Of a stretch of DNA of 64,000 nucleotides, positions 16,059 through 56,155 are shown in pieces. The number at the start of each line of letters is the position of its first letter. Position 1 is the first letter of the stretch. A model generated the notes under the pieces. That model saw only the letters and a program-made list of their open reading frames with translations, made no database searches and was not told the DNA's origin. The DNA lies in contig VRMN01000010.1 in NCBI GenBank assembly GCA_008690995.1, forward strand, positions 682,001 through 746,000, in the 5' to 3' direction. This stretch comes from Porphyridium purpureum (lineage: Eukaryota; Rhodophyta; Bangiophyceae; Porphyridiales; Porphyridiaceae). The position numbers and the translations under genes are program-made.

Positions 16059-17402
16059 TTAGCTGCTCGTTCGACCCGCGTCACAGGAGCTCCGTTCGAG
16101 CGGGTGGCGCCGCGTTGCGCTGGAGGCATGTCTGACATGACTGTTGGCAATATAGCCAAATCGATCAAAGTATGGGCGCCAGCGCCTAGCAATGTCGGCA
16201 CGAAGCGACTCGGGAAGTGGTCTGTGCGTGTTTCGACGATACATCGCGAACGTCTTTCCTCGCAGAGCCTTTTTCAGCGCTTGGCGCATATTGACCGAAA
16301 GCTCCCAGCCGCAGCGCGCATAAATGTCGACTACAACTCCCTCCGGGTCCCGCGCAAGCTGCGCGTACGCAATCTCTACGGCGTGGCACTTTTCGGCCTG
16401 TGACGCCGCGTACTCGTTGTACAAAAGCTCAAACTGCGCAAAAATGAATTCACGCACTTCAGCCTCGCGGAGCACTTGCAAGGTTGTGAACCAGTACGTT
16501 GTGTCAGCCATATGTTCAGCGCTCGCATAGACCTCGTATGGATCACGATGCACGTAGCAAAACTGCGCATTGGGAAAAACGGAGCGCAGCACGGGCACGC
16601 GCGCTGTGTGACAAGGCGACTTGACGAGCAGCACACGGAGGTTTTCCGCACGTCGGGCATGAGAACCTTCGTCCACGTTGCGCATGATCTCGTCTCGCAC
16701 AAGAAGCTTGGAGATGAACAGCAGAAATGCGGCGCGCCATTGTGCAGCGTCAGTCGGATCCGCCTCACGCAGAGCAAAGAGCGATCGGAATTCGCGCTCA
16801 ATGCTCATGAAATAAAGTGTCCCTGTGTATGGGGAAACCCCGTCGGCTAGTAAAGACGTTGCCAGTTCATCTTCTCCGGGGAGATCAAATTCGAGCGGCA
16901 TATTGTCCATGGGACGCGTCGCGTCCAGCAGGCCTGCAAGCAGCCATTTACCAAGTCTCTCGAACACGAGAAACGAGCTCGGGAATCCGGCTGTAAATAT
17001 GGAGCAGTATGTAAATCTCTGCTCGTCGAGCGCAAGCAGATTGTGCAATAATGTCGTCCCCGTACGCGGGTGCCCCAGAATGAAGACCGGGCGAAGCTCT
17101 GCGGCATGCGACGTCAGCCAATGCTGCATCTCACGCACTCGGCGGCCGTACACAATCCACTCGATCACTGCCAGCACAGAGTTGAAGAATGCCATGACGG
17201 TCACGAAGAGTACGCGAAACCAGTACACTCTCCACTGTATCGAGCGCCCATGGCGTCTCAAGATCGATGCCCACTGTCCCAGCGTCACGCCTGACAGCGT
17301 GTTATTTTTGAGCGAGTAGACATGCTTGGGAGTAAATGGCACGGAGCAATCGTCCCTGCGTTCGGTATCATCGAATCCGCGCAAGTACGTCGCCGCAGCC
17401 AT
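16059..17402 (-). CDS. Sulfotransferase family protein (PAPS-dependent)
   Basis: Predicted 447-residue sulfotransferase. The 5'-phosphosulfate-binding loop FILGHPRTGTTLLHN lies at about residues 107-121. The 3'-phosphate-binding region KSPCHTARVPVLRSVFPNA with HRDP follows at about 261-288. This spacing is that of the 'sulfotransferase 3' group of membrane-linked or bacterial-type sulfotransferases. A hydrophobic stretch near residues 60-85 could be a signal anchor, fitting a Golgi enzyme. PAPS is the donor; the acceptor cannot be told from sequence, but cell-matrix polysaccharide is a reasonable inference in an alga. The frame is open upstream to 17495 but only with a GTG; the first ATG at 17402 is chosen. 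The gene follows the chorein gene on the same strand with an 89-bp gap that contains two GTACAGT motifs, so it probably has its own promoter. Confidence 0.85.
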   Translation of the reverse strand: MAAATYLRGFDDTERRDDCSVPFTPKHVYSLKNNTLSGVTLGQWASILRRHGRSIQWRVYWFRVLFVTVMAFFNSVLAVIEWIVYGRRVREMQHWLTSHAAELRPVFILGHPRTGTTLLHNLLALDEQRFTYCSIFTAGFPSSFLVFERLGKWLLAGLLDATRPMDNMPLEFDLPGEDELATSLLADGVSPYTGTLYFMSIEREFRSLFALREADPTDAAQWRAAFLLFISKLLVRDEIMRNVDEGSHARRAENLRVLLVKSPCHTARVPVLRSVFPNAQFCYVHRDPYEVYASAEHMADTTYWFTTLQVLREAEVREFIFAQFELLYNEYAASQAEKCHAVEIAYAQLARDPEGVVVDIYARCGWELSVNMRQALKKALRGKTFAMYRRNTHRPLPESLRADIARRWRPYFDRFGYIANSHVRHASSATRRHPLERSSCDAGRTSS

Positions 17403-17463
17403 CCTGTTCGCCCTTCGGCAGCGATCAGGGCGCGCTCTCGTCTGGCAGCCGGTCACTGACGCG

Positions 17464-17481
17464 ACTGTACAACTACTGTAC
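17464..17481 (-). promoter_or_regulatory. Two GTACAGT motifs ahead of the sulfotransferase
   Basis: On the minus strand GTACAGT occurs at 17481-17475 and 17470-17464, about 62-80 bases before the sulfotransferase ATG. Both sit in the 89-bp gap between the chorein stop codon and that ATG, where a promoter must lie if the genes are transcribed separately. Confidence 0.6.
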
Positions 17482-17491
17482 CGCACGCTTC

Positions 17492-19780
17492 TCACACGAG
17501 AGTGTGCGAGTCAGCCGCAGTTCCTGCGCCGCCAACGAGCTGGTTGTCTTCTAGCCAGAGCGCGTGGTCCTGTGCTCTGGAGCCGGGGCCGCCAGATGAT
17601 GAGACGACGGCGCTGTGATTCCCAGAAAACGCGACCTTTTCCAATAGGGACATCAGATTCCGCTCTGCTTTCAGCAAGGCCGCTTCCATCTGCCGAATAA
17701 TCGAGTCCTTGCTTGCAGACGCATCACTGACGAGCCTCTCGAGGTCGACAAGTTCCTCCTTCAAATCCTTGTTCTTGGTTCTTAGACGCTCTATTTCGGC
17801 CTCGAGCTCCTGAATGTGGGCCAGCGGGTCTAACACAGACGAACTTCCTTCGCCGTGATCTCCGCTACCGCGCATTGCCGCAAGCCTCAACTCGCGCTCC
17901 ACTTGGAGCTCTTGTGCGAGCTTCTCAGCCCGCTGGCGTGCCTCGTGATCTGGCGTGCGCAACTTGAATACCATTGTGATTCCACCGGACTCGCGCGCCT
18001 GCTTGACCGCCATTTCAGCTTGTGCTATCTCGTCAACGTACTCATACGGTTCAAAGCCGAGTAAATCTGCAGGATCGTTTGCAAGCTCTTTGCCCGTATC
18101 TCCCGTGATAAACGCCCAAATACGACTGAAAGGCCCAGTCCTGCTGTGTCCTTGTTCAGGCTCCGGCGAATCAGGTTCATTCGACACAGGGTCCACATCA
18201 CTAGCCTGACAATTACGCTGGGGTTTGGCCCTCTGCATGCCGCCATGCACCTTCTCTGCAACGCTTTCAATCTCGCTCAAAATACTTTCTTCCTCACTCA
18301 TCAAGAAAGCGCGTGCAGGCAGAGGCTTCGGTCGCGGACGCTTGCTTTTATCCTGCCGCTTGTCTCTTTTCAGTGCTCTGCCTTTCGAGCGCCTGTCTTG
18401 TGAATCGCTGGCACCCACGTCACCTACGTCCAGATCGGTTGTGTCTCGATCGGCGTCACTGCGATACATATGTTCATGTACTGGTTCCGACAAACTGTTA
18501 AAGGACCCAGCTTCCATTCCCAAACCATGGCCGCTTGCATGCTCTGCTGGAATCATCAGGCCGCTCGACTTTGCGGCCTCACCGCAATTGGAACATCTAA
18601 ACGGGGCAGTTTCCTCTTGCGGACTGATTTTGCAGGACGACAATGCCATGATTTCGAGTAACCAGCGCATTTGGCGGGCAGACACGCAGAAATCCGGATC
18701 GTCGATTTCGAGTGCTGCCTCACAGGCCACCGCTTCTTCACTATTGCCTTCAGAACCTGCGCTCTGATCACCAGATGCGCTTAGCAAGACTTTCAAAGTA
18801 AGCCCCAGTCCATTAATGATTGGAAATTCTGTCTCAAACATGTTCAAGAACAGCTCGCTGACTGCGTGGGCGCCGCCGCGACTGGCCAGTCTGCTTTCGA
18901 CCATTTGTGGCTGGCGCGGGATAAAAGCAACTGTAAGACCTTGAATGGAGAAAAGCTTGCGCATAACAACAATGTCCACACTGCTTGGATCTATTTGATT
19001 GAAGCACTTATGCCAGTCCGCATCCGCACTGTTTGCGAGAATTGACGCGCACGACACCCATCCTCGACATTCCGAGTCTGAGTACTCGAGTTTGAGACTA
19101 TTCACTTCGAGCTCAATATTGAAAACAAGTCGTCCGAGCATAGTTTTGTACCAGCTGAAGTATGACAGTGGGTCAAAGTCTCGCGCTTTCTCTGCTCGTG
19201 TGCCATCAGATGCCGCCTGGCCGAATGTTGTACCGCCAGTCGCTGGACTCATGCTAGCGCCTCCATTCGCGAGAAAGTGCTGGAGCTCAGTGCCAGGGAT
19301 AGAGGAGCTGTTGCTTGTTTCAGATCTCTGCGGCGGCTTCTTCGAGCTCTTACCGCTTTTCGAGCTACTTTTCCTGCTCTTGGACTTTGAGCTCGCCAAT
19401 TTGCTGCTGCCAGACTTTCGCAGCTGCGAATCCTCATCTATGGATGCGCGGTGACCGGTCGCATCCGGAAATTCGGAAGAAGCACTTGCATTATCGCTCA
19501 GCGTAGCGAGCATATGCACATTTTCCAGGTACACCTTGACGGGCGAAGACGTGAGCGCGCTCCACGGCACGTGTATTCGTAGCCTGCCGACCGACGCGCG
19601 CAGGATGCTAAGGGGTGCGCGTGCCTCACGCAGCAGCTTATTTATGGCGTCGACGCGCAGCTCGGCATTATCGAGCACCAGCTGCCCGCCGCCAATGCCC
19701 AAGCGCACATCGGACGTGCGCGACTGCACGTACTCCTGCGTCAGCTGCTGCAGCCACGCCGCAAGCGTCCCGTCAAACAT
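17492..19780 (-). CDS. Chorein N-terminal domain protein (VPS13-like) with C-terminal coiled coil
   Basis: 762 residues. The N-terminus (MFDGTLAAWLQQLTQEYV, then a segment with GGQLVLDNAELR and VGRLRIHVPWSAL...PVKVYLENV, residues 1-90) matches the chorein domain that opens VPS13, ATG2 and UHRF1BP1 proteins. That domain forms the entrance of a lipid-transfer groove at membrane contact sites. A Ser/Lys-rich low-complexity stretch follows (about 115-170), then a middle region I do not recognise, an Arg/Lys-rich stretch near 475-500, and a strong heptad-rich coiled coil at about 605-720. VPS13 proteins are usually over 3000 residues, so this is a short chorein protein, nearer in size to UHRF1BP1-like fragments. 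The open frame reaches 19819 but only through TTG; ATG at 19780 starts exactly at the family's usual first residue. Confidence 0.75.
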   Translation of the reverse strand: MFDGTLAAWLQQLTQEYVQSRTSDVRLGIGGGQLVLDNAELRVDAINKLLREARAPLSILRASVGRLRIHVPWSALTSSPVKVYLENVHMLATLSDNASASSEFPDATGHRASIDEDSQLRKSGSSKLASSKSKSRKSSSKSGKSSKKPPQRSETSNSSSIPGTELQHFLANGGASMSPATGGTTFGQAASDGTRAEKARDFDPLSYFSWYKTMLGRLVFNIELEVNSLKLEYSDSECRGWVSCASILANSADADWHKCFNQIDPSSVDIVVMRKLFSIQGLTVAFIPRQPQMVESRLASRGGAHAVSELFLNMFETEFPIINGLGLTLKVLLSASGDQSAGSEGNSEEAVACEAALEIDDPDFCVSARQMRWLLEIMALSSCKISPQEETAPFRCSNCGEAAKSSGLMIPAEHASGHGLGMEAGSFNSLSEPVHEHMYRSDADRDTTDLDVGDVGASDSQDRRSKGRALKRDKRQDKSKRPRPKPLPARAFLMSEEESILSEIESVAEKVHGGMQRAKPQRNCQASDVDPVSNEPDSPEPEQGHSRTGPFSRIWAFITGDTGKELANDPADLLGFEPYEYVDEIAQAEMAVKQARESGGITMVFKLRTPDHEARQRAEKLAQELQVERELRLAAMRGSGDHGEGSSSVLDPLAHIQELEAEIERLRTKNKDLKEELVDLERLVSDASASKDSIIRQMEAALLKAERNLMSLLEKVAFSGNHSAVVSSSGGPGSRAQDHALWLEDNQLVGGAGTAADSHTLV

Positions 19781-20078
19781 GGCAGCGCGCGGCGAGCAGC
19801 AGAGCAATAAAGCCAGCAACCTCGGTTCTGCGAGCGCGGCTGGCTGCCACTCTCGCGCAAGCCCGCGTCACTAGCGAAAGACTCCAGCGCGGCTGTGAGG
19901 TGTGCAGGGCGGGACCACCACCCGTGCGCGCCGTGACGCGAGAGCGAAAGGAGCCAGCGGCGCTCACTAGTAAAACGGGCCCATTGAATCAGGGAAAACT
20001 GTACTTCGCGTGTACCCCTGGTATGGCAACTCGAGCGCGCAGGCGTGTGGTGGCGTCTCGCGCGCGGACGACAGTGCA
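19781..20078. promoter_or_regulatory. Divergent promoter region, chorein gene and transporter
   Basis: This 298-bp gap separates two start codons pointing away from each other. A GTACAGT motif lies on the minus strand (ACTGTAC at 19998-20004), 218-224 bases before the chorein ATG. No plus-strand copy was found ahead of the transporter. Confidence 0.45.
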
Positions 20079-21569
20079 ATGGGCGACACACCGGGCGCGC
20101 ACACGGGCACGCTGGCCCTGGGATTCTCGAGCTTTGCGGTCTGCGTGGCGAGCATTCTGGGGACGGGGATTCTGGCCTTTCCAGATGCGCTGTACGCCTG
20201 TCCTGCGCCGGCGGTCGGCGCGCTTGGCGCGTCCTCCACTTTTGCTCAGGTCGGCGCTGTCATCATCATGATCGAGCTGATTCAGTGCGCCGCTGCGTGG
20301 ATGCCAGTGACAGAGCGAGCAAAGCTGCATTCAGCCAGCGCGGAAGCAGAACGTGGCTCTTTGGTATCCAAGGACATTGGCTCGGTCGAAACGCCGCGTT
20401 CTACAGACGACGCGCCTCTTCCGGAGCCTTCGTTGTACGAGCTGGCCGAACTCTTCCTTACTTCACCATGGCTCAAAGCCCTGTTCTACGCGATGATTCA
20501 GATGCATTTTGTTGCCACGATTGTGTCTTACGGGCTCGCCGCTCCGCAGGCATACCGCGAACTGCTGAGGCATATCTTTCCGGCAGCGTTCGCTTTGGAC
20601 CAGCCTCTGTCCTGGTGGCAGTCGTCTGGTATGGCCTTTAGCTTTTCCTTTTTTATGTCCGCATGTGTTCTCACATTCTTGCACGGTTGGCAGCGCGCGC
20701 TGTCGACCATGAGTGCCGTCAAAGCCGTTCTACTTCTATGCGTAGTTGCGATGATCGGGATTTTGTGGAACAAGGCAGCGGCAGTCGACAGCCTGAGTAG
20801 TGATCTGGGCCAGCAAGAGTCAATGCAGTCATGCGGAGAAGTTTTCTTACTTTGGACCATATCAGTTGGAGGCAGCGTCAATGCGTTGCCCGTTCTGTAT
20901 TCCTGGGTGCTTCTCGAAAAGGGTGTTGTGGACGAGGCTGACCTTTCCACCATTCGTCGCGCTGCACTGTTTGCTGTCGTATTCTGTGCCTTACTGGTGG
21001 CATTTTACGCCTGTGCAGTTTTCTATCTCGTCGGACCTGTTGAGCTCAAGCTTGCGCACGACGCGGGCGAAATGAGCACGGTCCTGCTCATGCGGAGCCT
21101 CATGCGCCTCAATGGGCGGACAGGTGTCCTGGCTTTGAAAATCATGGTCGACTTTTTCGTCGCTGCTTCAGTTACCGTTTCGTTCATTCTCATGGCTGTG
21201 GCCATGCGCCATTTTTTGCACGCAGCCAGCATTGCGCTCGCCAAGCACATAAGCAGCAATGGCAGAAATATTCTGTCATGGCTGGCCGAACCACTTATGT
21301 ATGTGGTTTGGTTTGGCCTCATCTGCGTGCTTGTTATTCTCAACCCTCGCGGGTTTCTGCGTGCTCTGGAAGTCTTTGCGTCTATGGCATTGAATATGCA
21401 GACGGGTGTGTTCCTGGCCTGGATGCTGTGGTGTGCACGTGCTCAGAATTTGGTTTCGACAATAGCCAATTCCATGGGCCGTGCCACGGCGTGGTTCTGG
21501 ATCTCCATAGTGGGCATTTATTACGCCATTGCAGTTTTGTACGACATTGTCTTCTCCATAACATCATGA
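20079..21569 (+). CDS. Multipass membrane transporter, amino acid permease-like (APC superfamily)
   Basis: 496 residues with about ten to eleven hydrophobic segments. The first one (LGFSSFAVCVASILGTGILAFP) has the unwound-helix pattern GTGILAFP seen in transmembrane helix 1 of amino acid/auxin permease and related APC-superfamily carriers, where the backbone binds the substrate's amino and carboxyl groups. A soluble acidic loop (about residues 85-125) splits helices 2 and 3. Substrate and membrane cannot be deduced. The frame extends upstream to a GTG at 20010, but ATG at 20079 places the first membrane segment at the usual distance. It diverges from the chorein gene and converges with the OGFOD1-like gene about 700 bp downstream. 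Confidence 0.7.
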   Translation: MGDTPGAHTGTLALGFSSFAVCVASILGTGILAFPDALYACPAPAVGALGASSTFAQVGAVIIMIELIQCAAAWMPVTERAKLHSASAEAERGSLVSKDIGSVETPRSTDDAPLPEPSLYELAELFLTSPWLKALFYAMIQMHFVATIVSYGLAAPQAYRELLRHIFPAAFALDQPLSWWQSSGMAFSFSFFMSACVLTFLHGWQRALSTMSAVKAVLLLCVVAMIGILWNKAAAVDSLSSDLGQQESMQSCGEVFLLWTISVGGSVNALPVLYSWVLLEKGVVDEADLSTIRRAALFAVVFCALLVAFYACAVFYLVGPVELKLAHDAGEMSTVLLMRSLMRLNGRTGVLALKIMVDFFVAASVTVSFILMAVAMRHFLHAASIALAKHISSNGRNILSWLAEPLMYVVWFGLICVLVILNPRGFLRALEVFASMALNMQTGVFLAWMLWCARAQNLVSTIANSMGRATAWFWISIVGIYYAIAVLYDIVFSITS

Positions 21570-22265
21570 TACGAGCAGTTGGTTTCGTGATTTTTAGCTT
21601 CGTATGTGCTCGCACATGCATTAATTTGCATGTTCGCCTGCCTGAGTGTGTGAATGTCTCAGAACTTGTGCGTGGCATGGCGTCATCTCCCGGTCAAGGC
21701 GCCGAGGAGTTGCTACCGCACCCCGCGCATGTACAAGCAAACCGGTTCATTGAAAAAGCGAGAATAAGGGGCCAATATGGCCAGCGCGAGTGGCGTAACG
21801 CTTCGTCCTGGGGTCAGAAATAGGCTTGTGGAGCCGGTAATAGCACTGCTTGGGTCATTCAATGGTCTTGTTAAGGGTACGGCGGCACAGCAAGTGGGTC
21901 GTTGCGGACCCTGCTTGATTTTTGCAACCATAAAGCGCCAAGTTTTTCGGTGGTCAGCTCTGAGCTCTACCCGCGTGTAGCTGAAGGGCAAAGGATACAG
22001 TGATGATATTGTCTTAATCCCTGATTGCTCCAATCAGTGGGAAAAGAACAATTGTTGCACCGACAGGCAACAACCATGATTTCCTACTATTTTTTTCAGC
22101 TCCGTCGGTCCCTTGAGCTTCTTCAGATTTTCGACTTTCTCGATTTTTAGGGACTTAGTAGACGGTCATGGTCCTTCAAAAGCTTGACATTGTTGTCGGT
22201 GAAGAAATTTGGATCTCGACGCAAAAGTACACCACTCCTTTGAATGCCGCTGATGTCTTGTCTCT
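21570..22265. other. Convergent intergenic region
   Basis: 3' flanks of the transporter (+) and the OGFOD1-like gene (-). Small overlapping frames are present but none resembles a gene. A T-rich run lies near 22085-22098. No RNA gene recognised. Confidence 0.4.
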
Positions 22266-24095: not shown

Positions 24096-24343
24096 CGTGT
24101 CCTGCGCTTGCACTGCCGCACAACCCCGGCCTCCCCAGGCAACCGATCACACGCGGCCGTCGCCCACGCCCCCCGTGCTGCGGCGTGCGCAGCCGCGTTG
24201 CAAACGGTTCAATTGCGAAATCGACTCGCGAGATACGAGCCGTTAAACCGTTTGTGAGGCGAGGTTTGGGGCGACGCCGTGCGGGATGTTTTGTGCTGGG
24301 CAGTAGAACGCGATAAAGGATTCGGGGGAGAGCGTCACGCGGC

Positions 24344-24344
<1 letters not shown>

Positions 24345-24388
<44 letters not shown>
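24345..24388. repeat. (AGC)14 trinucleotide repeat
   Basis: Fourteen perfect AGC units followed by AG. The run lies 22 bp before the ATG at 24411, so it would be in the 5' leader of that transcript. If translation began at an upstream non-ATG codon in the same frame it would encode polyserine. Confidence 0.9.
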
Positions 24389-24389
<1 letters not shown>

Positions 24390-24410
24390 GGCCGCACACT
24401 GACAGGCACA

Positions 24411-26589: not shown

Positions 26590-27062
26590 GCCACGGACTC
26601 CCCTCCGCCACACGTGTCCGCGCACCCCCGAGACTCCGTGCGAAAGCTCTCCCTCACCGCGCGCTTGCACCCAGCCCCTCCCACGTGCCGCGCGCCGCGT
26701 CGCTCTGCTCCAACCACGCGCCTTCCGCCCCCACCTCCCCACTCCACCATCAGCACGCGCCGCTCCAGCACGTCACAAGGCAGGGCCCCCACGCCGCTGT
26801 ACCCCCACCGCGCACGTCGGTACAGCGCCGCGCCCTTCGCGCCAAAACACGCGCGCCGCCGCAGGCATTATTTATATGCGTGCTCGCTCATTAAATTAAT
26901 ACAGCGCTGTACCCCGCGCGGTACTGGAACGTTCCGCGCGGGTCCACGATCTGCGCGTCTGCGCACACGGCAAGGAGGAAGCATGCAGTACAGCGGGCGG
27001 AAGGCGGTTTGTGGGAACGTTCGCCTTGTCGTCGGCCGCGCGGGCGGGCTGCAAGAGAAGGC
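26590..27062. promoter_or_regulatory. Shared divergent promoter of SUMO and DegP
   Basis: Contains GTACAGC in sense for DegP at 26988-26994 (about 70 bases before its ATG) and 26820-26826, and GTACAGC in sense for SUMO (minus strand) at 26912-26906 and 26802-26796. It also contains the palindrome GGAACGTTCC at 26926-26935 and a second GGAACGTTC at 27014-27022, each a single nGAAnnTTCn dyad, i.e. a minimal heat-shock-factor-like half array. Extremely GC-rich between 26600 and 26870. Long overlapping frames in this region are composition artefacts. Confidence 0.5.
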
Positions 27063-28892: not shown

Positions 28893-33600
<4,708 letters not shown>

Positions 33601-33774
33601 ACGGTTCAGCTGGCACAGGCGCGGTCCTTGAAGTCTTCGTGATGTATTTGAAAAGTTAAGACGACATGGGCACGACGAAAGATGCACACCGCGTCCGCAC
33701 ACGACTACTGTACAAGATGCGACAAAACGGGCACGAAACTCCCCACAGAAGACGCTCATGCCTTTGTTTGTGTC

Positions 33775-34290
33775 TCAGTGGCCAGCGCCAGTACCGCTAC
33801 CTCCTCCTAGTGCTGGGTCCTTTGACACAAAGTCGCCAATGGATGGAAGCGGCCCCTCCGAAAGTGGCGCAAAGCCACGTGGTTGCAAAGGTACGTGCTC
33901 GCCCGCGTCGAGAGAAGCAATCCCCGGCAAGGGCTCTGCGAAACTGGGATTCAGAGATGGGTTTGAATACAAAGGCGGCTCCTGCTTGAGCCGCTTGGCT
34001 GGCTGCGCATGCGTTGCCGAGCCTGCCACCGACGATGCCGGTCCCTTGGCGGCTGGAGTTCCATGCGCGGGGCCCTGAACGCCCACCCTCGCCGGAGCGG
34101 CTTGTGCGGGGGCAAGATTTCCGTCAAAGTCAGAGGCCGCGAGGCGCCTAACCCACGTGGCATATAAATCGCCATGCGGCTCGACAATGGACAGCAAGTT
34201 TCTATCCGCGCCGCTTGCTTCGAACTCCTTTCGCGACGCCTCAATCGTCGCCTCGATGACGTGCAGGTACACGTCCCTGGTTCCGTTCAT
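33775..34290 (-). CDS. TFIIA large-subunit-like protein, N-terminal part only
   Basis: 171 residues. Residues about 4-55 (RDVYLHVIEATIEASRKEF...LYATWVRRLAASD) match the helical N-terminal (alpha) domain of TFIIA alpha/beta, which forms a four-helix bundle with the gamma subunit and stabilises TBP on DNA. The rest is a Pro/Ala/Gly-rich linker with one KRLKQE basic patch. The conserved C-terminal (beta) domain that completes the TBP-binding beta-barrel is not encoded: the frame ends at 33775 and only about 170 bp remain before the 3' end of CDC5L. It could be a true short form, a gene with a downstream exon overlapping CDC5L antisense, or a truncated gene. ATG at 34290 chosen. A GTACAGT motif lies 151-157 bases upstream on the same strand. 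Confidence 0.6.
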   Translation of the reverse strand: MNGTRDVYLHVIEATIEASRKEFEASGADRNLLSIVEPHGDLYATWVRRLAASDFDGNLAPAQAAPARVGVQGPAHGTPAAKGPASSVAGSATHAQPAKRLKQEPPLYSNPSLNPSFAEPLPGIASLDAGEHVPLQPRGFAPLSEGPLPSIGDFVSKDPALGGGSGTGAGH

Positions 34291-35434
34291 CCTGCGCGCA
34301 TGTGGAAGGACGCCGCCCAGCACTTCCCGCCGTCCGCGCCCACCCCGTTGCTCGCGCGCTGCGTCTTGGCCACCTCTTCCCACTCCCGGATCCGCGCACA
34401 GCCCGCTCCGACTGCAAGCTCGCACTCAGCGCGGGCGCGCACTGTACACCCGCGGGAAGAACAGGTACAGCGGCGCCGCCCCGCACAGAGTGCGACGTCC
34501 GAGCGCAGCGGTCCGTGCGGCGCGGTGCGAGGCGCAAACGGGAGCCCGTCGCGCTCGCGCGCTGGCGCGCAGCACCCGCCCGAGTCGCTCTGTCGCCGGC
34601 GCAGTCGTGCGAGCCCATTTCTGCAGGCGATGGGTGCGTATCTGCCGTGAGGGCACGAGCGGCTTGCACGCTCCGACGCCCCACACCGCGGTGGCTACGC
34701 GTGCGGGTGCAGAGCAGAAGTGGCCCTGCGACAGTGAGCTCTCGGCGCACACATGTTGGTGCTACAGAACGTCATCGCGGACACATATCCTTTCACGAAA
34801 TGCTCGCGTGGGATCAAAGCATGGGTGGCTTCAGCGGTGTCTGGGCCAATGCCATGGCGAGATGGAGCCTGGGCCTGCATGTGAACGCAGGGGGAACATG
34901 CTGCTTCGTGGCTGCGCGCAGAGGCGTTCCCGAGGATTTAACATTGAGCACGAGATGCAAATACGGTCGCGTGCGTCTGTGCTCGCAGTCTTCACGGCCA
35001 TGGGATGGCCGGCTGCGCGCGGAAGCGGCAGGACTCCGTGCAGTTGGATGTTATCCCACGGTTTGCGCACGACAGCACCGCCTTCCAATGGGACGCCGCG
35101 TGTCTTGTTGACGCCTTGCGCACGATCCAACCCGCTCGCCAGACGGCCGGCCGTCCGACATCCGCGCGCGCTGCGCGACGCGGCCGTCTCGCGCCATCCA
35201 GCCCGCGCCTCCGCGCCCATGCTCTCTGGCCGCGCGTCCAGCCATCGCCGCGCTGCTGCGAGGACTCGCGCGCACGCCGCGTTCCCTGCATTCGCCCCCG
35301 TTTCTTCCATTTGCCCCCGTTCGAGCACACCATAAACGCTCTTCATAAAACGGGTGCGTTTGAGTACGAAGCACGCAGCGCGAGCGACCAGCCGAAAAAT
35401 CTCCGCGCTCGCCAACGCTTTCTGGGTTGCGCCC
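34291..35434. other. Divergent GC-rich upstream region (TFIIA-like and LRR genes)
   Basis: 1.1 kb between opposed start codons. On the minus strand a GTACAGT lies at 34447-34441, in sense for the TFIIA-like gene; on the plus strand GTACAGC lies at 34465-34471. The large overlapping frames (for example 34157-35335 plus and 34831-35766 minus) have no recognisable domains, begin mostly without ATG and reflect high GC. No gene supported. Confidence 0.4.
34441..34471 (-). promoter_or_regulatory. GTACAGT motif pair ahead of the TFIIA-like gene
   Basis: ACTGTAC at 34441-34447 reads GTACAGT on the minus strand, about 150 bases before the ATG at 34290. A plus-strand GTACAGC follows at 34465-34471. 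Confidence 0.5.
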
Positions 35435-41583: not shown

Positions 41584-41611
41584 GCGCCAGTCGCGCCTCC
41601 GACCCCGCTCG

Positions 41612-41770
41612 GTACAGTGCGCTGTACCTCCCCAACCGCCCGATTAGGGTTTCTGTGATGCGGCACGGAGGTACAGTGCGGATGCGGTGCGGGGTACAGT
41701 GCGGATGCGGTGCGGGGGTACAGTGCGGATGCGGTGCGGGTACAGTGCGGATGCGATGCGGGGGTACAGT
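41612..41770 (+). promoter_or_regulatory. Tandem GTACAGT array ahead of the HAD-GPD gene
   Basis: GTACAGT occurs at 41612, 41671, 41694, 41718, 41740 and 41764, all in sense for the gene starting at 41901. The last five form a tandem repeat of a 22-24-bp unit beginning GTACAGTGCGGATGCGG. A minus-strand GTACAGC (GCTGTAC at 41621-41627) faces the GH98-like gene. Array to ATG distance is about 130 bases. Confidence 0.65.
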
Positions 41771-41900
41771 GTTTGTGCGGTGCCGAGCGCGCAGCTCAAA
41801 TGTCAGTTGGGAGTCCGGTGAGCGCGTGCGCAGCGTGTGTGCAGCCTCAGGGCTGAGGCGCGGGGAAGGGACGCGCGTGCAGCAGTGGCAGAAAGGCGGG

Positions 41901-43790
41901 ATGGAGGGCATGGTGCGGCGCGACGCGTCGCCGGAGGTGCTGCAGCTATGGCGCAACGCAGAGTGCGTCGCCTTCGACATCGATTGCACCATCACGATCA
42001 ACGATAGCCTCGACGCGCTGGGCGAGTTTCTGGGCGTCGGCGAGCAGATCCAGAAGATCACAAACGCCGCAATGGATGGCCACCTGGATCTCGAGACCGC
42101 GCTGCAGCAGAGGCTCGACGCCATGAACCTGACGACTCAGAAGATCCAGGCTTTCGTTAACTCTCATCCCGTCGAAAAGCGCCTCGTGCCGAACATTCGC
42201 ACGCTGATTGAGGAGCTCCAGGCGCGCAATGTCGAGGTGTTTCTCATTTCCGGCGGATTTCGTGAGCTCATTTTGCCAGTCGCAAAGGCGCTGGGCGTCC
42301 CAAAGTCCAACATATTTGCGAACCGCTTCGTGTACATGGCCGACGACAACGCCGAGGAGGATCAGGTCAGCAGCCAAAGTTTGCGCGTCACGACGTTTGA
42401 CCCAAAGGAGCCGACGTCTCGTGGTGGTGGCAAGCCCGAGGCCATTCGCCGCATACGAGAGAAACGCCCGTATAATACCATCGTTATGGTTGGGGATGGC
42501 ATCACCGACCTCGAAGCTGGGCAGGAAACCGGTGGTGCAGATCTTTTTATTGGGTATGGAGGCGTGGTTCAGCGCGAAGCAGTCATGAAGGAAGCGGATT
42601 GGTTTGTCGATGATCATGCCGTACTTGCGGAAGCTCTTCCTCGTCTCAAGGTTGCCATGATCGGCAGCGGGGCATGGGCGTGTGCAAGCATGCGCATGGT
42701 GGCTGAAAATGCACGGAGCAGGCGCATTTTCTATCCAAAGGTGAAGATGTGGGTGTTTGAAGAAGAGCACAATGGTGAAAAGCTGACAGAGCTTATCAAC
42801 CGGACTCACGAGAATCCGAAATACCTCCCGGGCTGTCATTTTGGGGACAATGTCGAGGCTTGCTCGGATATCGTGTCTGTAGTACAGGACGCAGATATCC
42901 TTATTTTTTGCACGCCACATCAATTCGTGCACCGGCTGTGCCTGCAAATTAAGAGCCATGTCAAACCGGGCTGCTTTGCTATTTCGCTCATCAAGGGAAT
43001 GAGAGTGCGGACTGACGGTCCGCAATTGATTTCGACCATGATTCAGCGCACACTGATGGTCGACTGCTCAGTGCTGATGGGAGCAAATATTGCCAATCAA
43101 ATTGGACCGGGATCTTTGTGTGAAGCTACCATTGCGTCGAAGAATGTTGAGCACGCGCGTTTGCTCAAATTGCTCTTCCACACGGAGTATTTCTACATTG
43201 ACATCATTTCAGACGTTGAAGGTGCCGAAATGAGTGGCACGCTGAAGAATGTAGTAGCTTTGGCGGCCGGCTTTGCTGACGGCTCTGGGTATCTCGATAA
43301 CTGCAAGGCCGTCATTCTCAGGGAGGGACTGAAAGAAATGCGCGAGCTGTCAATTCGCCTGTATCCGTCTGTACGGGAATCCACCTTCTTCGAAGCTTGT
43401 GGAGTCGCCGACTTGATTGCCACGTGCTCCGGAGGCCGAAATCACAAGGTCGCGATGGAATTCGCAAAGCGTGGAGGCTCTGATTCGTTCGATACATTGG
43501 AAGCCGAGCTGTTGCACGGTCAGAAACTGCAAGGGACGCTGACGAGCCACGAGGTGCAGTCGTGCTTAAAGATCAAAGGCTGGGAGGCTGACTTTCCGCT
43601 CCTGAAGGTCGTGGACTTGATTGTCAACGGCGTGTACGAACCGGCAGACATCGCGCGATTCCGTGATTTGAACTTGTTCCCCATTGTCAAGTCGCCGACT
43701 GCCGAGGCGTTGGCGGCCTCCGAGGATGCCGCGATGCTGGACTCAATCCAGCGCCGCGTCAGCATTCTGGAGGTCCGCGGGCTTGTCTGA
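41901..43790 (+). CDS. Bifunctional SerB-like HAD phosphatase / NAD-dependent glycerol-3-phosphate dehydrogenase
   Basis: 629 residues, two enzymes in one chain. The N-terminal HAD phosphatase (about 10-245) has motif I DIDCT (26-30), motif II SGG (117-119), motif III Lys178 and motif IV GDGITD (198-203), like phosphoserine phosphatase. The C-terminal glycerol-3-phosphate dehydrogenase has the dinucleotide loop MIGSGAWACA (253-262), KG at 365-366, GANIANQ, catalytic Lys449 in TLKNVVALAAGF and the N-K-A...R binding segment (468-474). The family usually reads GSGNWG, so AW replaces NW here. The same fusion is known in chlorophyte algae, where it makes glycerol from dihydroxyacetone phosphate. 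In a red alga it would also feed floridoside synthesis. ATG at 41901 (or 41910) fits; the longer upstream frame translates the promoter array and is not real. Confidence 0.92.
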   Translation: MEGMVRRDASPEVLQLWRNAECVAFDIDCTITINDSLDALGEFLGVGEQIQKITNAAMDGHLDLETALQQRLDAMNLTTQKIQAFVNSHPVEKRLVPNIRTLIEELQARNVEVFLISGGFRELILPVAKALGVPKSNIFANRFVYMADDNAEEDQVSSQSLRVTTFDPKEPTSRGGGKPEAIRRIREKRPYNTIVMVGDGITDLEAGQETGGADLFIGYGGVVQREAVMKEADWFVDDHAVLAEALPRLKVAMIGSGAWACASMRMVAENARSRRIFYPKVKMWVFEEEHNGEKLTELINRTHENPKYLPGCHFGDNVEACSDIVSVVQDADILIFCTPHQFVHRLCLQIKSHVKPGCFAISLIKGMRVRTDGPQLISTMIQRTLMVDCSVLMGANIANQIGPGSLCEATIASKNVEHARLLKLLFHTEYFYIDIISDVEGAEMSGTLKNVVALAAGFADGSGYLDNCKAVILREGLKEMRELSIRLYPSVRESTFFEACGVADLIATCSGGRNHKVAMEFAKRGGSDSFDTLEAELLHGQKLQGTLTSHEVQSCLKIKGWEADFPLLKVVDLIVNGVYEPADIARFRDLNLFPIVKSPTAEALAASEDAAMLDSIQRRVSILEVRGLV

Positions 43791-43895: not shown

Positions 43896-43923
43896 GTACA
43901 GCTTTGGGGACATAGTGTACAGT
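43896..43923 (+). promoter_or_regulatory. GTACAGC and GTACAGT ahead of the next gene
   Basis: GTACAGC at 43896-43902 and GTACAGT at 43917-43923, in sense, about 125-152 bases before the ATG at 44048 and inside the 257-bp gap after the HAD-GPD stop. Confidence 0.55.
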
Positions 43924-44047: not shown

Positions 44048-44839
44048 ATGGCACGCCCGCGCGCACATCTCGCGCGGCCAAGCCTCCGCTCATGTGCGCC
44101 TCGCAGCCCCCGGGGAAGCAGTCGCGGTCGCGTGGCGAGGACGCGCACCGGCGGAAGGCCGCAAGCCATCATCCGGCAAGCGCGCACTGCGAAACGCGCT
44201 CAAGGCTGCGCTCGCGCTGGCCGCCGTCATGATTACACCCTTGGTGCCGGCGCATCCACGGCGTCGTCAGCGGCGGCCGCCGCCAGGGCGGCTCGCGCCC
44301 TCGAGCGTCGCCAGGGCCAAGTTGCGTTTAGCGTTCCCATCGAGCAGCTCGGCATCAACAAAGAAGAATTCATCGGCGAGCGCTTCATCAAGTCCAAGAA
44401 ACTGCTAAAGTATTCAGAAGCAGAGGAAGAGATTCTTCACCTCGAGGACATGGAGATGGACTCAACCTGGATGAGGTCCGCTCGACTGACAGGCCTTGCA
44501 GTGTTCGTGGCCGGCGGCATGACGGTGATGGGTGGAACGGGCAAGATTTGGGATACCTTTGCCGCTTCTCAAGAGGAAAAAGAGCGTGAAGAAGAATTGC
44601 GCATCACGGGTCGCTTCATTGACACCACAGCCAATCGTATGGACGAAGACGAGAAGCTCAAAAAGAAGGCTGAACAGCGAAAGCGACTTGAAGAGCAGTT
44701 TTCCTCCATTGAAAGTGATGACGCTGGGGAGTCCCCGAAAGAGAAAAAAAGTGGTCCCTCTGAGCCTCCTGGTGCTTCCCCTAGCGGTGGCGTGGATTTC
44801 AGCGCTCTTGATCGCTTACTCGGCGATGACGACGAGTAG
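44048..44839 (+). CDS. Predicted organelle protein with one membrane segment, unknown function
   Basis: 263 residues. The first 85 are rich in Arg, Ala and Ser and nearly free of acidic residues, as in an organelle targeting peptide. A conserved-looking core (about 92-140, VAFSVPIEQLGINKEEFIGERFIKSKK in part) precedes one likely membrane helix (about 146-166, ARLTGLAVFVAGGMTVMGG). A charged Glu/Lys helix (174-225) and an acidic tail ending LDRLLGDDDE follow. I do not recognise the family. It shares the strand of the HAD-GPD gene upstream and converges with the next gene 200 bp downstream. ATG at 44048 chosen over a GTG at 44036. Confidence 0.6.
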   Translation: MARPRAHLARPSLRSCAPRSPRGSSRGRVARTRTGGRPQAIIRQARTAKRAQGCARAGRRHDYTLGAGASTASSAAAAARAARALERRQGQVAFSVPIEQLGINKEEFIGERFIKSKKLLKYSEAEEEILHLEDMEMDSTWMRSARLTGLAVFVAGGMTVMGGTGKIWDTFAASQEEKEREEELRITGRFIDTTANRMDEDEKLKKKAEQRKRLEEQFSSIESDDAGESPKEKKSGPSEPPGASPSGGVDFSALDRLLGDDDE

Positions 44840-48944: not shown

Positions 48945-49063
48945 CCAGCGAGATCCTCTGTCTTCCGCCCTTGCATCGCGACCGTTCTAGCGTTGCGCTC
49001 CCACGCGCCGCCCTCCTCTGTTCGCTTCGCGCCAAAACGCGGGCGGCCAGAACGCCGCAGAAG

Positions 49064-49090
49064 GTACAGTGAGTGCGCGCGCTGTACAGT
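49064..49090. promoter_or_regulatory. Bidirectional GTACAGT cluster between DSCC1 and its neighbour
   Basis: Plus-strand GTACAGT at 49064-49070 and 49084-49090, in sense for the gene at 49263 (about 175-200 bases before its ATG). Minus-strand GTACAGC at 49087-49081 is in sense for DSCC1 (about 137 bases before its ATG at 48944). The GCTGTACAGT core is partly palindromic and so serves both strands. Confidence 0.55.
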
Positions 49091-49262
49091 AAATTGACCC
49101 TGGTCGAGGAGCGCTCGGCACGTGCGCCGCGCAAGCCAGCGTTCGCTGCAACGCCAACCTGCCGCGGGCAAGAGTGCTACAGCCGCGCGCGGACGCCGGC
49201 AGCTGCGGCGCCCTCTCGTCCTCGCCTGTTGTGGTTCACAGCGGCGCGTGCGGCCGGTGACT

Positions 49263-50399: not shown

Positions 50400-50460
50400 T
50401 TTTTTTGTGAGGCTAAACCCACTGATCTGTCCTGCCTTGAACTCGTTGTGAATCGCCCTT

Positions 50461-51624: not shown

Positions 51625-51934
51625 CCCGAGCGGAGCCTCCCACTTGAGCTCCACCGAGAAAAGCCCTCGACGCAATTGACCACACCACTCCGGGCTGCCT
51701 GTGCACGCTGATTTCTTGGCTCGCAGAACGAAAAAGCAGGGTGACCCGAGCGACCTCGCGGCTGCTGCAAGTACGCGCGCACTGCAAACCCCTGTGCGCA
51801 CGGTCGAAGCCCCTCCTGCTTCACACGAGGAAGACCTCTGGCTCCGCAGTCATTCGCATTGCCCGCGCGCCCGCGCGAGTCAGCTCGAGCACGTACGGCG
51901 CCGCGCGACGTCCACGACCGCCAGTCGCTCGGCT

Positions 51935-54268
51935 ATGGCGTCGAGCGCGCCTGCCGTTGAGCACGTGCGCGGCTCCGACACGCAGTACAGCAGCACTGCC
52001 GGCCACGGTACAGTTGTTCAGCACTGGTCGTGCGGGTGCGCACGCGCGTGGCGCTGCCGACCGCCGGTGCGGCTGCGCTGCGCAGAGCCTGCGTCGCGGA
52101 CATGGACACGCAGGCTTTTGTGCTTGTTTACGCCCACAGCACCTCGCCGTCGCGATGCGCTGTGCGCTGCGCACGCGCGCACAGCGTCGCGCGCAGTGAA
52201 CGTCCGCGCGCATCGCCCAGTGGCGACCGGACCGTCCCTGGCCGGCGGCGCCGGCGGCAATGCAAGCAGGCTCGTGTCTAACGCCCAGAGTCCAACTTCA
52301 GGGGATAGTTCTCCCACAGCCGACGCGTCCGGCAACCCTAAGAGCCGGGCCGGAAGAAGTGCATGGAACAGTGCCAGGACCCAAGCGGCTCGTGACGGGC
52401 TCGTCATCTCTGCCGAGCAGAAGCGGGCGGCATTCATTCGAGAACAGCAACGACGTTTTGTCTTGCAGTATCCCCCGGAGAATGAAACCGATGAGCGCGT
52501 TTACAGCTTCATCACCGCCAACCAGCTTGACCAAGCGCAGGCTGTGCTGCTCTCGGAACCGGTCCCAACCGCTTCCGTAGGCTCTGTTGTCCTGGTCGCA
52601 CGAGCTTTGCGCCACGCAGGAGCGCTAAGCGAGGCTTTGGAAGTGTTTCGCAGCGTTTTGGGACCTACTTTGACGAATGTGAAGACCGTGCTGACACACG
52701 ATGCCACCGCAGAACTGATCGCATGTCTTGCGGCAAGCGGCGAGCATGAGCTCGTTCTTCAAACCGTAGATTTCGCCTACACGGCCTATGGTCGGCTGGG
52801 ACCACTCATGTATCGGGCAAAAGTTTTGGCTCTGGCGGCGTTGGAACGGACGAACCGTGATGACCCTTGGCCAGAGATTCTCAGTACGCTGCGCGAGTTG
52901 CACGCAAAGGGACTGTACTTGAAAGTTCAGACTTATAACCATTTACTCCACCTTCTCGGCCAGAGAGGTTTTTGCCAGTTGGAGAACTGTCAAAAACTCT
53001 TCGAGCTAATGGAGACAGAATTCAGTGTATGTGCAGATACAGTCACGTTCAACACACTGATGAATCTGCACCTGCAGCAGTCAAATGCAGACGAGGTCGC
53101 AGCTCTCTGGTTCACCTTGCGAAAACGCGCACCTGAAGTTCAACCAGACCGCGTCTCGTATAATCTGTTCATCAGTAGCTGCAGGCTAACAGCGAAGCCG
53201 CGCATTGACGCGGCCATGAGCGCGCTGCAAGAAATGCGAAACTCGAGCAATCCCTCGTTGAGACCCGACCAAATAACGTACAATTGTGTGCTCGCTGTGT
53301 GTGAGAAAGCAGTAGAGCCTCGAGTTGCGCAGCGAGTCCTTCGCGAAATGAAAAGGGCTCGATTCGAGCCTGACGAACGGACGCACGTGGCCTTGTTGAA
53401 TTTGTATGCGCGTTGCAATGACGTCCAAGCCGCAAGCACTCTATTCCGCGAACTTCAAAAGTCACAGGATAAGGTACTGAGCCTGGAAATCTACACAACT
53501 ATGATCAATATGTACGCCGAAATGAGACGCGTTCAGGATGCATTTGACCTTTTCGTGGACATGGTTCGGTCGCCGAATATCTCACCATCGGTTGGGACTT
53601 TCAACGCACTCATGAATGCATGCCGCTCTGTTGGGGATATTGACCGAGCCCAAGAAGTTCTCAAGAAGATGGCCTCTGCTGGCCTTCGTCCTGATGTGAT
53701 CACATACTCCGTGTTTGTGGATCTTCTGGGGCGCGCAGGTCGAATCAACGACATATGGGCTACTTTAAAAGAGATGGACAGCCGGCAGATCCAGCCAAAT
53801 CTGATCACCTTGACATCGGCGCTGAATGGATGCGTGCGGGCCGGTGACTTGAAGGCGGCAGAGCAATTGCTAGGCGAGATGCCGAAGCGCGGTATGCGGC
53901 CAAATGCGTTCACCTACTCTGTGCTTATCGAAGGATACAGTCTCCGTGGAGACCTGGACCGTGCATTGTACTACTATCGCGAACTGCGCGAGCAATTATC
54001 AAGTGCAGACATGCCACGACCTAGTGCTCTGCGTGCTCTGTTCAAGGCGTCGTGCCGAGGCGGCGACGTTCAGACTCTTTCCTATCTTCTGGAGACGGTG
54101 CTGAACCAAACCTTGTTGGTGAAGGGTGCGTACAGCAATCAGGAAATTGATCGCTTTTTGCGTTGGCTGTCCGACATCCGTTCTGAGGCGCGGCCGCAAC
54201 ACGCGGGCGTGGAACCGATGCTGGCGGAGGCCGTACGGCGTCTGACACCGACGCCGGCGAATAGCTAG
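51935..54268 (+). CDS. Pentatricopeptide repeat protein, P class
   Basis: 777 residues from ATG 51935. From about residue 300 to 690 there are some nine to ten 35-residue PPR motifs (e.g. VTFNTLMNLHLQQSNADEVAALW, VSYNLFISSCRL, ITYSVFVDLLGRAGRINDIWATLKEM, FTYSVLIEGYSLRGDLDRA). No E/DYW editing tail or SMR domain is seen. Such proteins bind specific organellar RNAs and guide their processing, stability or translation. The N-terminus is Arg/Ala-rich, as expected for targeting to plastid or mitochondrion. The start is uncertain: GTACAGC/GTACAGT motifs lie at 51985-52014, inside this reading, and no in-frame ATG follows before about 52807. The true N-terminus may therefore come from a different frame through a short intron near 52100-52200. 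Confidence 0.85.
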   Translation: MASSAPAVEHVRGSDTQYSSTAGHGTVVQHWSCGCARAWRCRPPVRLRCAEPASRTWTRRLLCLFTPTAPRRRDALCAAHARTASRAVNVRAHRPVATGPSLAGGAGGNASRLVSNAQSPTSGDSSPTADASGNPKSRAGRSAWNSARTQAARDGLVISAEQKRAAFIREQQRRFVLQYPPENETDERVYSFITANQLDQAQAVLLSEPVPTASVGSVVLVARALRHAGALSEALEVFRSVLGPTLTNVKTVLTHDATAELIACLAASGEHELVLQTVDFAYTAYGRLGPLMYRAKVLALAALERTNRDDPWPEILSTLRELHAKGLYLKVQTYNHLLHLLGQRGFCQLENCQKLFELMETEFSVCADTVTFNTLMNLHLQQSNADEVAALWFTLRKRAPEVQPDRVSYNLFISSCRLTAKPRIDAAMSALQEMRNSSNPSLRPDQITYNCVLAVCEKAVEPRVAQRVLREMKRARFEPDERTHVALLNLYARCNDVQAASTLFRELQKSQDKVLSLEIYTTMINMYAEMRRVQDAFDLFVDMVRSPNISPSVGTFNALMNACRSVGDIDRAQEVLKKMASAGLRPDVITYSVFVDLLGRAGRINDIWATLKEMDSRQIQPNLITLTSALNGCVRAGDLKAAEQLLGEMPKRGMRPNAFTYSVLIEGYSLRGDLDRALYYYRELREQLSSADMPRPSALRALFKASCRGGDVQTLSYLLETVLNQTLLVKGAYSNQEIDRFLRWLSDIRSEARPQHAGVEPMLAEAVRRLTPTPANS
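51985..52014 (+). promoter_or_regulatory. GTACAGC/GTACAGT pair near the PPR gene start
   Basis: GTACAGC at 51985-51991 and GTACAGT at 52008-52014. They lie downstream of the ATG assigned to the PPR gene, so either the start is misplaced or these copies are incidental. Confidence 0.4.
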
Positions 54269-54440
54269 TGCTGACGTGAAAGACATAGCATCGTGCCTCC
54301 TTGCGGCAAGGAAAGTGGGTCAAGGGACTTGCTGGGACGGGTTTACGGACGCCCGAAATGATCTGACCGGCAATCGGCTTCCTGCGCGGGCAGAGGAGCT
54401 TCTGAAGCGGCCCGCGCGGTGCAAACTGAAAGGTGCGAAA

Positions 54441-54487
54441 GTACAGTAAGAGGTACAGTACGCTCGAAGCCGCGTCCGCGGTACAGT
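54441..54487 (+). promoter_or_regulatory. Three GTACAGT motifs ahead of mitochondrial uS5
   Basis: GTACAGT at 54441-54447, 54453-54459 and 54481-54487, all in sense, within the 170-220 bp following the PPR stop and 220-266 bases before the ATG at 54707 (28-74 bases before an alternative in-frame ATG at 54515). Confidence 0.6.
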
Positions 54488-54706
54488 GGATCCGCGCGCG
54501 CGAGGGTTGTCCCGATGCGCCCCGCGGAGAACGCTGTGGCGCAAGTGCTTGGGAGGTGCACGGGACGATCGCAGGCTCAGCGCGTGACGCCAGCTCTCTC
54601 GCGCCGCTCGCACCCTAACCGCGCGCACGGGCTCCTTTGGTCAGGGACGTATTGTGGTGGCGCGCTCAATCAGAAACATCGACGGTTCTTCACCGGCTGC
54701 GCAGCG

Positions 54707-56155
54707 ATGCAGGCCTCACGCCTTGTGGAAGCGCTTCGTCGTTCCGTCACGAGCGCCGCGCGCGTTTCGACGCATGGCCGTTCGCTTCTTTTGCGTAGCG
54801 CTCCAGCCGTGTCTTTGCACAGGCTCTTACTTTTTTCCGGCGTGCGCACGCTTCATGCATCCCCTGCTCGGGCAGACGATGCCGGAGCAGCTAACTCGCC
54901 TGTGACGCTCGGGGAAGGCAGCGTGCTCGGTATGCCTCCATCATTAGACACACCTACAGTGCGAGTTCAGCCGGCAACTCTCCCAAAGCCAGCAGATTTA
55001 CGTATTGGGCGAGACCTTGCCCAGCTCGCGCGCCTCATCGTTTTCAACCGTGCAGCCATTTCGCGACTTGATGAAATCTATGCTGAGGAGAGCGATCCAG
55101 ATCTGACCGAGGCTCAGTGGTCAGAACGTCGACGGAAATCGCCGGGCAAGTTTCAGCACGATATTGCATTTGAAGCAGAGGAAGAAGTACGCTTCACGCT
55201 CCAGACTGACGAAGCGGAACGGTTTCTCGAACGAATTCTTGACCGCTTGGGGTTGGTGAAGACAGACCTTTTGAGGATAGAGCATGATCTGTTTGCATTT
55301 GACAAACTGGAAGTGAACCGCGACGCGATGAGTCACACTGAAGTGTTTGAGCTTTTCGATCACAAAGATACGATGCAAGAGAATCTCGCAATCATGCAGA
55401 TGGGTCAACCAGATGATACGCGCACGGATGGTGAAATCTTTCCAGTCGATAAGAAGGGAATACTGATGGCAACAAAAAAGAAAGAGGATGCTGAGTTCTG
55501 CGAGGGTCGGTTACCGAATCCGGACGGAAGCATTCCGGAAATTGCGGAAGAGGAGCTCAAACTTCGTCGCGAGGCTGACATTGTCGGTGAGGAAGAAAGA
55601 GAACGATCGTCGAAGGTTGCAAACGTCTTGAGAGGTTTTTCGAGTGCCTTGATTGGAAGCACCATCACCTCAAAGGTGGTCAAGGGAGGCTCGATTTACA
55701 CCTATCGCGCAATTGTTGTGATTGGGAATGGCAAAGGTGTGGGGGGCTTTGCGACTGGACGAGGAACAGAGCTCAAGGGAGCAATTGAGAATGCTGCACG
55801 CAAGGCGCGCAAAAATCTGCTTTCCCTGGACTTGTATGAAAATAGAACCATTCACCACAGCACGAAGGCAAAGAACATGGCGAGCCTAGTGAAACTTTGG
55901 CCACTTGGAGAAGGAAGAGGGATTCGCGCGTGCCGTCAATTCATCGTTGCTCTGGACATAATTGGAATCAAAGACGCAGGCGTTCGTATTGTGGGATCGA
56001 CGAACATGATGTATGCTATCGGTGCTCTGTTTAAAGCACTTGCTAGTGTGAGAAGCGCTGAGCAAATAGCTGTGGAGCGTGGACTCAAGTTCGTTGACAT
56101 CAATGAAGCGTTTCGTCTGCGATCATTGAGGAACAGAGCACGTAACTTGAGATAG
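54707..56155 (+). CDS. Mitochondrial-type small ribosomal subunit protein uS5
   Basis: 482 residues. The C-terminal third is a complete bacterial-type S5. The RNA-binding N domain (about 318-385) has SKVVKGGSIYTYRAIVVIGNGKGVGG in part and GTELKGAIENAARKA. The C domain (about 395-450) has GRGIRACRQFIVALDIIGIKDA and the STNMMYAIGALFKAL segment. uS5 lies at the mRNA entry channel and helps decoding accuracy. The roughly 315-residue N-terminal extension, with an Arg/Ser-rich start (MQASRLVEALRRSVTSAAR) and helical Glu-rich middle, resembles mitoribosomal S5 proteins more than plastid ones. An in-frame ATG at 54515 would add 64 residues. It shares the PPR gene's strand and lies 440 bp beyond it. 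Confidence 0.9.
   Translation: MQASRLVEALRRSVTSAARVSTHGRSLLLRSAPAVSLHRLLLFSGVRTLHASPARADDAGAANSPVTLGEGSVLGMPPSLDTPTVRVQPATLPKPADLRIGRDLAQLARLIVFNRAAISRLDEIYAEESDPDLTEAQWSERRRKSPGKFQHDIAFEAEEEVRFTLQTDEAERFLERILDRLGLVKTDLLRIEHDLFAFDKLEVNRDAMSHTEVFELFDHKDTMQENLAIMQMGQPDDTRTDGEIFPVDKKGILMATKKKEDAEFCEGRLPNPDGSIPEIAEEELKLRREADIVGEEERERSSKVANVLRGFSSALIGSTITSKVVKGGSIYTYRAIVVIGNGKGVGGFATGRGTELKGAIENAARKARKNLLSLDLYENRTIHHSTKAKNMASLVKLWPLGEGRGIRACRQFIVALDIIGIKDAGVRIVGSTNMMYAIGALFKALASVRSAEQIAVERGLKFVDINEAFRLRSLRNRARNLR

Follow-up and report, generated by a model that had tools for sequence, protein, structure and literature searches.

The short word GTACAG[TC] is a real promoter motif in the DNA analysed here, a 64-kb stretch from the red alga Porphyridium purpureum (contig VRMN01000010.1, positions 682,001 to 746,000; hereafter the window). 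It is concentrated in clusters upstream of genes, and its GTACAGT form is biased towards the sense strand. In our judgement GTACAG[T/C], with a G preferred just before it, is probably, though by no means certainly, recognised by a sequence-specific DNA-binding protein in the promoters of a large class of ordinary genes. The window has a G+C content of 53.8% and contains long, single-frame genes; for P. purpureum as a whole, 55.5% G+C and 235 introns are quoted in the accessible part of PMC10866757.

Enrichment and sharpness of the motif upstream of genes

Nineteen genes were placed between positions 16,059 and 56,155 (the gene island) from long open frames and Pfam matches, each being treated as a single open frame with no search for introns. 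Their upstream DNA, taken as 300 bases or up to the next gene, merges into 14 spaces with a total of 4,160 bases; the gene list, the choice of ATGs and the 300-base limit are our own. These spaces hold 24 copies of GTACAG[TC], 16 of the T form and eight of the C form. Seven copies are found in 30,432 bases of coding sequence (CDS), two of them at the doubtful start of a PPR gene, one in 5,505 bases of other noncoding DNA of the island, and six in 23,903 bases of flanks rich in transposable elements, where three represent one site in three copies of a long terminal repeat (LTR). Upstream spaces versus CDS give an odds ratio of 25 (P = 9e-17 with sites treated as independent). A sharp word is thus enriched in promoters over both coding and other noncoding DNA, as is expected of a transcription-factor site, and the concentration upstream of genes claimed in the original prediction is borne out.

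Counting by space instead of by site removes the effect of a tandem array. At least one GTACAG[TC] is present in eight of the 14 spaces, compared with 0.56 on average and five at most in 1,000 dinucleotide shuffles, and with 0.68 on average and four at most in 2,000 draws of CDS segments; the shuffled and intragenic controls proposed earlier favour the motif when run within the window. Of the 19 genes, 11 are preceded by a site on one strand or the other at a distance of up to 300 bases, and ten by one in sense.

Because the motif had originally been picked after looking at the sequence, all words were ranked, here with the uS5 ATG set at 54515 (location and space counts used 54707). By Poisson probability GTACAGT is the first of 8,192 upstream seven-mers (16 copies versus 0.62 expected); it is present in seven of the 14 spaces and occurs only twice in 30.6 kb of CDS. 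Its shifted neighbour GGTACAG ranks second, and the sole non-overlapping words among the top twelve are AGC-repeat words. In the corresponding ranking of 8-mers an AGC-repeat word comes first and GGTACAGT second. The motif is sharp: neither GTACAGA nor GTACAGG occurs in the upstream spaces, and GTACAG is found 24 times upstream and ten times in CDS, compared with 33 and 244 times for the sum of its 18 one-base variants. Likewise, 23 of 32 upstream GTAC fall within GTACAG or CTGTAC. In an alignment of 22 sites, G precedes the motif directly in 13 and C in none, and G occupies position -3 in 15; these sites, several from one promoter, were picked by hand from 39 (38 GTACAG[TC], with the LTR site counted), omitting three array units, some facing partners, and sites in CDS and flanks.

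In the whole window, both strands together, GTACAGT occurs 23 times, the number given approximately by the original prediction, and GTACAGC 15 times. All 17 GTACAGT and seven GTACAGC positions listed there are exact on recount; missing from that list were six GTACAGT (3555-, 33707-, 52912-, 57648+, 58712+ and 62842-) and eight GTACAGC (2857+, 13271+, 20189-, 23292-, 34465+, 36356-, 41621- and 54130+). Markov simulations of orders 1, 2 and 3 (100 runs per order) gave GTACAGT means of 2.5, 4.3 and 5.7 and maxima of 7, 12 and 12, far below the observed count. GTACAGC exceeds the order-1 model only (mean 4.1, largest 11) and is not above order 2 (mean 7.4, largest 16) or order 3 (mean 10.1, largest 20), so that its excess is a matter of placement and not of the whole-window count.

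Orientation, spacing and clustering of the sites

The sites and site groups considered are the following (strand given where one applies to the whole feature).

17464..17481, minus: two sense GTACAGT (17464 and 17475) in the 89-base gap from the VPS13-like stop to the sulfotransferase ATG, which they precede by 61 and 72 bases
19998..20004, minus: GTACAGT preceding the VPS13-like ATG by 217 bases and lying antisense to the divergent gene at 20079
26796..26826: everted pair GTACAGC (minus) and GTACAGC (plus) from the divergent SUMO/HtrA promoter, 23 bases from centre to centre
26899..26912: near-palindrome ATACAGCGCTGTAC, read by eye, in the SUMO/HtrA promoter; includes GTACAGC (minus) at 26906
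26988..26994, plus: GTACAGC preceding the HtrA-like ATG by 68 bases
34441..34471: everted pair GTACAGT (minus) and GTACAGC (plus), centres 23 bases apart; GTACAGT lies 150 bases upstream of the minus-strand TFIIA-like gene
41612..41627: inverted pair GTACAGTGCGCTGTAC upstream of the gene for glycerol-3-phosphate dehydrogenase fused to a HAD phosphatase (GPD-HAD)
41657..41771, plus: tandem array with a period of about 24 and five sense GTACAGT (41671, 41694, 41718, 41740 and 41764), 130-223 bases upstream of the GPD-HAD ATG at 41901
43896..43923, plus: GTACAGC followed by GTACAGT, with 21 bases between centres; they precede the ATG at 44048 by 145 and 124 bases, respectively
49064..49090: GTACAGT (plus) at 49064, GTACAGC (minus) at 49081 and GTACAGT (plus) at 49084 in the divergent DCC1/49263 promoter; the latter two overlap as palindrome CTGTACAG
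51985..52014, plus: GTACAGC and GTACAGT in the opening part of the PPR frame, 23 bases from centre to centre
54441..54487, plus: three sense GTACAGT (54441, 54453 and 54481) upstream of uS5
58712..58718, plus: GTACAGT in the LTR of a copia element, whose gag-pol ATG at 58898 follows after 179 bases

Orientation was assessed in the five spaces for which no second gene has its ATG within 300 bases, namely those of the sulfotransferase (SULT), TFIIA-like, GPD-HAD, 44048 and uS5 genes. All 13 GTACAGT in these spaces are in sense; counted by space this is five of five, which by chance has a probability of 1 in 32 for one direction. GTACAGC is not oriented in the same spaces (one sense, two antisense), and hence the earlier statement that sites are mostly in sense holds for GTACAGT and not for GTACAGC. 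In the two short divergent gaps with GTACAGT (19998; 49064/49084) the direction fits one gene and not the other.

Distances from site to ATG range from 61 to 316 bases (uS5 start corrected, PPR pair set aside); for sense GTACAGT the range is 61-282. The correction matters for uS5, where adopting the ATG at 54707 places the three sites 219-259 instead of 27-67 bases upstream. The two PPR sites at 51985 and 52008 were counted as CDS, since they lie inside the frame if the ATG at 51935 is right, and are possibly located in 5' noncoding DNA.

Seven of the eight motif-bearing spaces hold two to seven copies, and 14 neighbouring pairs lie within 30 bases of each other, in agreement with the clustering noted before. 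Their centre spacings are 2, 10, 11, 12, 18, 21, 22, 23 (four times), 24 (twice) and 28. The six sites reported at 41612-41764 are correctly positioned, yet they are not six independent events given the tandem array at 41657-41771. Two unrelated promoters, SUMO/HtrA and TFIIA-like, share the arrangement of an everted pair at 23 bases. With ten spacings collapsed by hand, a test for helical phase gave P = 0.024 at 10.5 bases and P = 0.035 for the best period, and six of the ten fall at 20-24 bases (P = 0.010). For this test the tandem array contributed a single value, pairs more than 30 bases apart and the two-base overlap at 49084 were excluded, and the spacing of the 49064 pair was taken between same-strand sites (20) and not between facing sites (18).

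Binding site or core-promoter element

We favour a factor-binding site because of the multiple copies, the facing pairs, the occurrence on both strands in divergent promoters and the varied distance to the ATG. The putative protein would read six or seven bases with little tolerance and would bind once or in clusters, roughly 60-320 bases before the ATG, at sites that often face each other or are paired at a distance of about one or two turns of the helix. Once bound, it may activate transcription or clear nucleosomes and thereby mark or open the promoter for RNA polymerase II, like the general regulatory factors of yeast. As for its identity, we would guess first at a C2H2 zinc finger, the largest factor family reported in P. 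purpureum: the accessible part of PMC4827209 assigns 30.2% of the transcription factors to C2H2 and none to SBP or AP2/ERF.

Several points weigh against this interpretation. The sense bias of GTACAGT is more than a plain activator site requires. Moreover, six upstream spaces are devoid of GTACAG[TC] (OGFOD1/24411, CDC5L, LRR, the 41217 gene, the 46206 gene and PEX16/PPR), although this agrees with the earlier suggestion, which had singled out CDC5L and the LRR gene, of a promoter class rather than a feature of all genes. GTACAG is also not the sole candidate word, because AATTGA (five of 14 spaces, z = 6.5) outscores ACTGTA (seven of 14, z = 5.9) when six-mers are ranked by spaces; in the same ranking of seven-mers GTACAGT leads with z = 8.4, followed by AATTGAC with z = 8.0 (three copies in three of 14 spaces). 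The helical-phase signal is weak, post hoc and derived from spacings of our own choosing, and is suggestive only; according to the part of PMC3267773 available, synergy was better with activators on opposite faces of the DNA. Finally, a single locus of a single genome was sampled.

Chief among the alternatives, since GTACAGT is strand-biased and 13 of the 14 spaces lack TATAAA, is a core-promoter element as originally proposed, most simply an initiator: transcription would begin on or beside the CA within GTACAGT, and several starts per gene would explain the clusters and permit the 2-7 copies per space. We regard this as possible, though clearly less probable. The 13 of 13 sense sites speak in its favour, and 61-282 bases would be ordinary lengths for a 5' leader. 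CAGT resembles known initiators. Inspection by eye revealed a TATA-like stretch some 30 bases ahead of the CA in the LTR of the copia element and ahead of an ATACAGC of the HtrA promoter. TATAAA is scarce elsewhere, with four copies in 16-56.2 kb and, among the spaces, just the one at 26871 (minus strand, SUMO/HtrA). By contrast, an initiator accounts poorly for as many as six sense copies per promoter, for facing pairs and for GTACAGC on either strand; no A+T-rich step stands out clearly some 30 bases ahead of the motif in the 22 hand-picked sites, and six of the 14 spaces lack the motif altogether. The copia LTR, which is expected to hold the element's own promoter, carries the motif and fits a factor site or an initiator alike. 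What stands of the original core-promoter proposal is a real, sharp upstream motif with a strand bias of GTACAGT that marks a promoter class; copy number per promoter, facing pairs, two-stranded GTACAGC and the spread of 61-316 bases fit a factor site better. A wider proposal, which we hold to be rather doubtful, is that GTACAG[T/C] would define the main TATA-less promoter class of a red-algal lineage, as a lineage-specific, strand-aware element whose factor, lacking a plant or animal counterpart, sets both promoter opening and firing direction, with the T form in sense and the C form as its facing partner.

The remaining explanations fare worse. A spread repeat or chance cluster confined to this window is improbable: the tandem array and the three LTR copies do inflate the count, and only one window is at hand, but no shuffle reached the observed eight spaces, and the flanks of the sites differ outside the array (by eye). 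Slightly less probable still is a site acting at the RNA level, such as a protein-binding or translation-control element in the 5' leader. Placement before the ATG and the sense bias of GTACAGT would suit it, but GTACAGC and facing partners lie on the opposite strand in several promoters, and no Rfam match was found in 16,000-57,500. A signal for 3'-end formation or polyadenylation in the preceding gene, to which the two SULT-gap sites directly after a stop and the GTACAGT at 33707 in a convergent gap could point, is rejected as very improbable, because the motif is scarce in other noncoding DNA of the island, is not a general feature downstream of genes, and is carried by four divergent-gene gaps in which no gene ends (19998; 26796-26988; 41612-41764; 49064-49090).

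A factor-binding site of this kind has likenesses among known systems. Sites for yeast Reb1, Abf1 and Rap1 are likewise short, sharp motifs found in the promoters of many ordinary genes, some 100-200 bases ahead of the ATG; they differ in sequence, and clustered copies are more numerous here. The GTAC core recalls SBP-box sites, among them the copper-response sites of Chlamydomonas CRR1, but our motif requires AG and T or C after GTAC, and SBP proteins number zero in P. purpureum in the accessible part of PMC4827209. Initiators share the CAGT core and the sense orientation of GTACAGT, whereas the motif described here is multi-copy and also inverted. Facing CTGT and ACAG halves as in CTGTACAG resemble the LexA box of E. 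coli (CTGT-N8-ACAG), from which the motif differs in its other and variable spacing and in belonging to nuclear genes of a eukaryote.

Promoter elements are a known class of which GTACAG[TC] looks to be a new member. Among the matches listed in searches of the open-licence literature, no title or opening part of an abstract described a GTACAG promoter element in red algae, which does not prove absence. The accessible part of PMC10866757, a 2024 study of expression in P. purpureum that compares promoters, makes no mention of GTACAG, TATA, core promoter, promoter motif or element, or transcription start. Nuclear promoter architecture in red algae is close to unknown, and so sharp a word offers a handle for a genome-wide count, a bait for one-hybrid screens and a short element for synthetic promoters, the last being relevant as the alga is used in protein production.

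Gene models and neighbouring features

Families were assigned to 13 genes: SULT, the VPS13 N-terminal region (76.8 bits, slightly below the cut-off of 80), an OGFOD1-like oxygenase, an HtrA-like protease with PDZ, CDC5L, an LRR protein, GPD-HAD, DCC1, PEX16, a PPR protein, uS5, SUMO and a TFIIA-like protein; six other genes are without a family. The identity of CDC5L was confirmed by a solved-structure search. The TFIIA-like match (27.8 bits) is under the Pfam cut-off of 36.2; the protein, encoded at 33,778-34,290 (minus), is a short TFIIA-alpha/beta-like product of 171 amino acids matching profile positions 1-102 of 415.

The uS5 frame opens at 54515, and its codon score is coding-like only some 200-260 bases further on. 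For this reason the next in-frame ATG, 54707, was adopted as the likely start; the stretch after it resembles a mitochondrial presequence (by eye). An annotation from the first ATG would be overlong, including about 190 bases (54,515-54,707) with non-coding-like codons. Similarly, the PPR frame is open from its first in-frame ATG at 51935, with the following one not before 52808, but its beginning (51,935-52,370) does not score as coding, which makes this start doubtful; an undetected intron, an unusual start codon or a transit peptide may lie behind it.

No tRNAs were found in the window by a scan run with bacterial settings. Searches of viral, bacterial and archaeal contig collections, which say little about red algae, yielded 591 pattern matches for CDC5L and six for GPD-HAD, with none confirmed in either case, and no match for a 26-mer of the LTR; the copia protein had no match in such contigs either. 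A pattern modelled on the GTACAGT array matched 47 viral stretches, which form no part of the evidence here.

A Ty1/copia element occupies part of 56,000-64,000, with a gag-pol open frame at 58898-62713 and an LTR-like repeat of about 325 bases that is present again in direct orientation at 57520-57830 and in inverted orientation at 62667-62991. The GTACAGT at 57648 (plus), 58712 (plus) and 62842 (minus) are one site in these three copies. The element adjoins an inverted reverse-transcriptase end at 63031-63999, indicating that two elements face each other.

For the six spaces free of GTACAG, nothing convincing emerged as a second motif. AATTGA, present in five of the 14 spaces versus 0.5 expected (e.g. 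46,213, minus; 49,092, plus; 51,674, plus), and AATTGAC, which also occurs five times in CDS, are a possible second, weaker promoter word. Exact GCGCCAAAA sites, which we take to be E2F-like, occur twice in the window (1.29 expected, hence no excess); their placement is curious, at 26,839 and 49,029 in the divergent GTACAG promoters SUMO/HtrA and DCC1/49263. The sole exact copy of TAGGGTTT in 16-56.2 kb, presumably similar to a plant telo-box, adjoins the GPD-HAD array at 41,645, and a pure AGC triplet run of 14.7 copies (24,345-24,388) stands immediately before the ATG of the 24411 gene.

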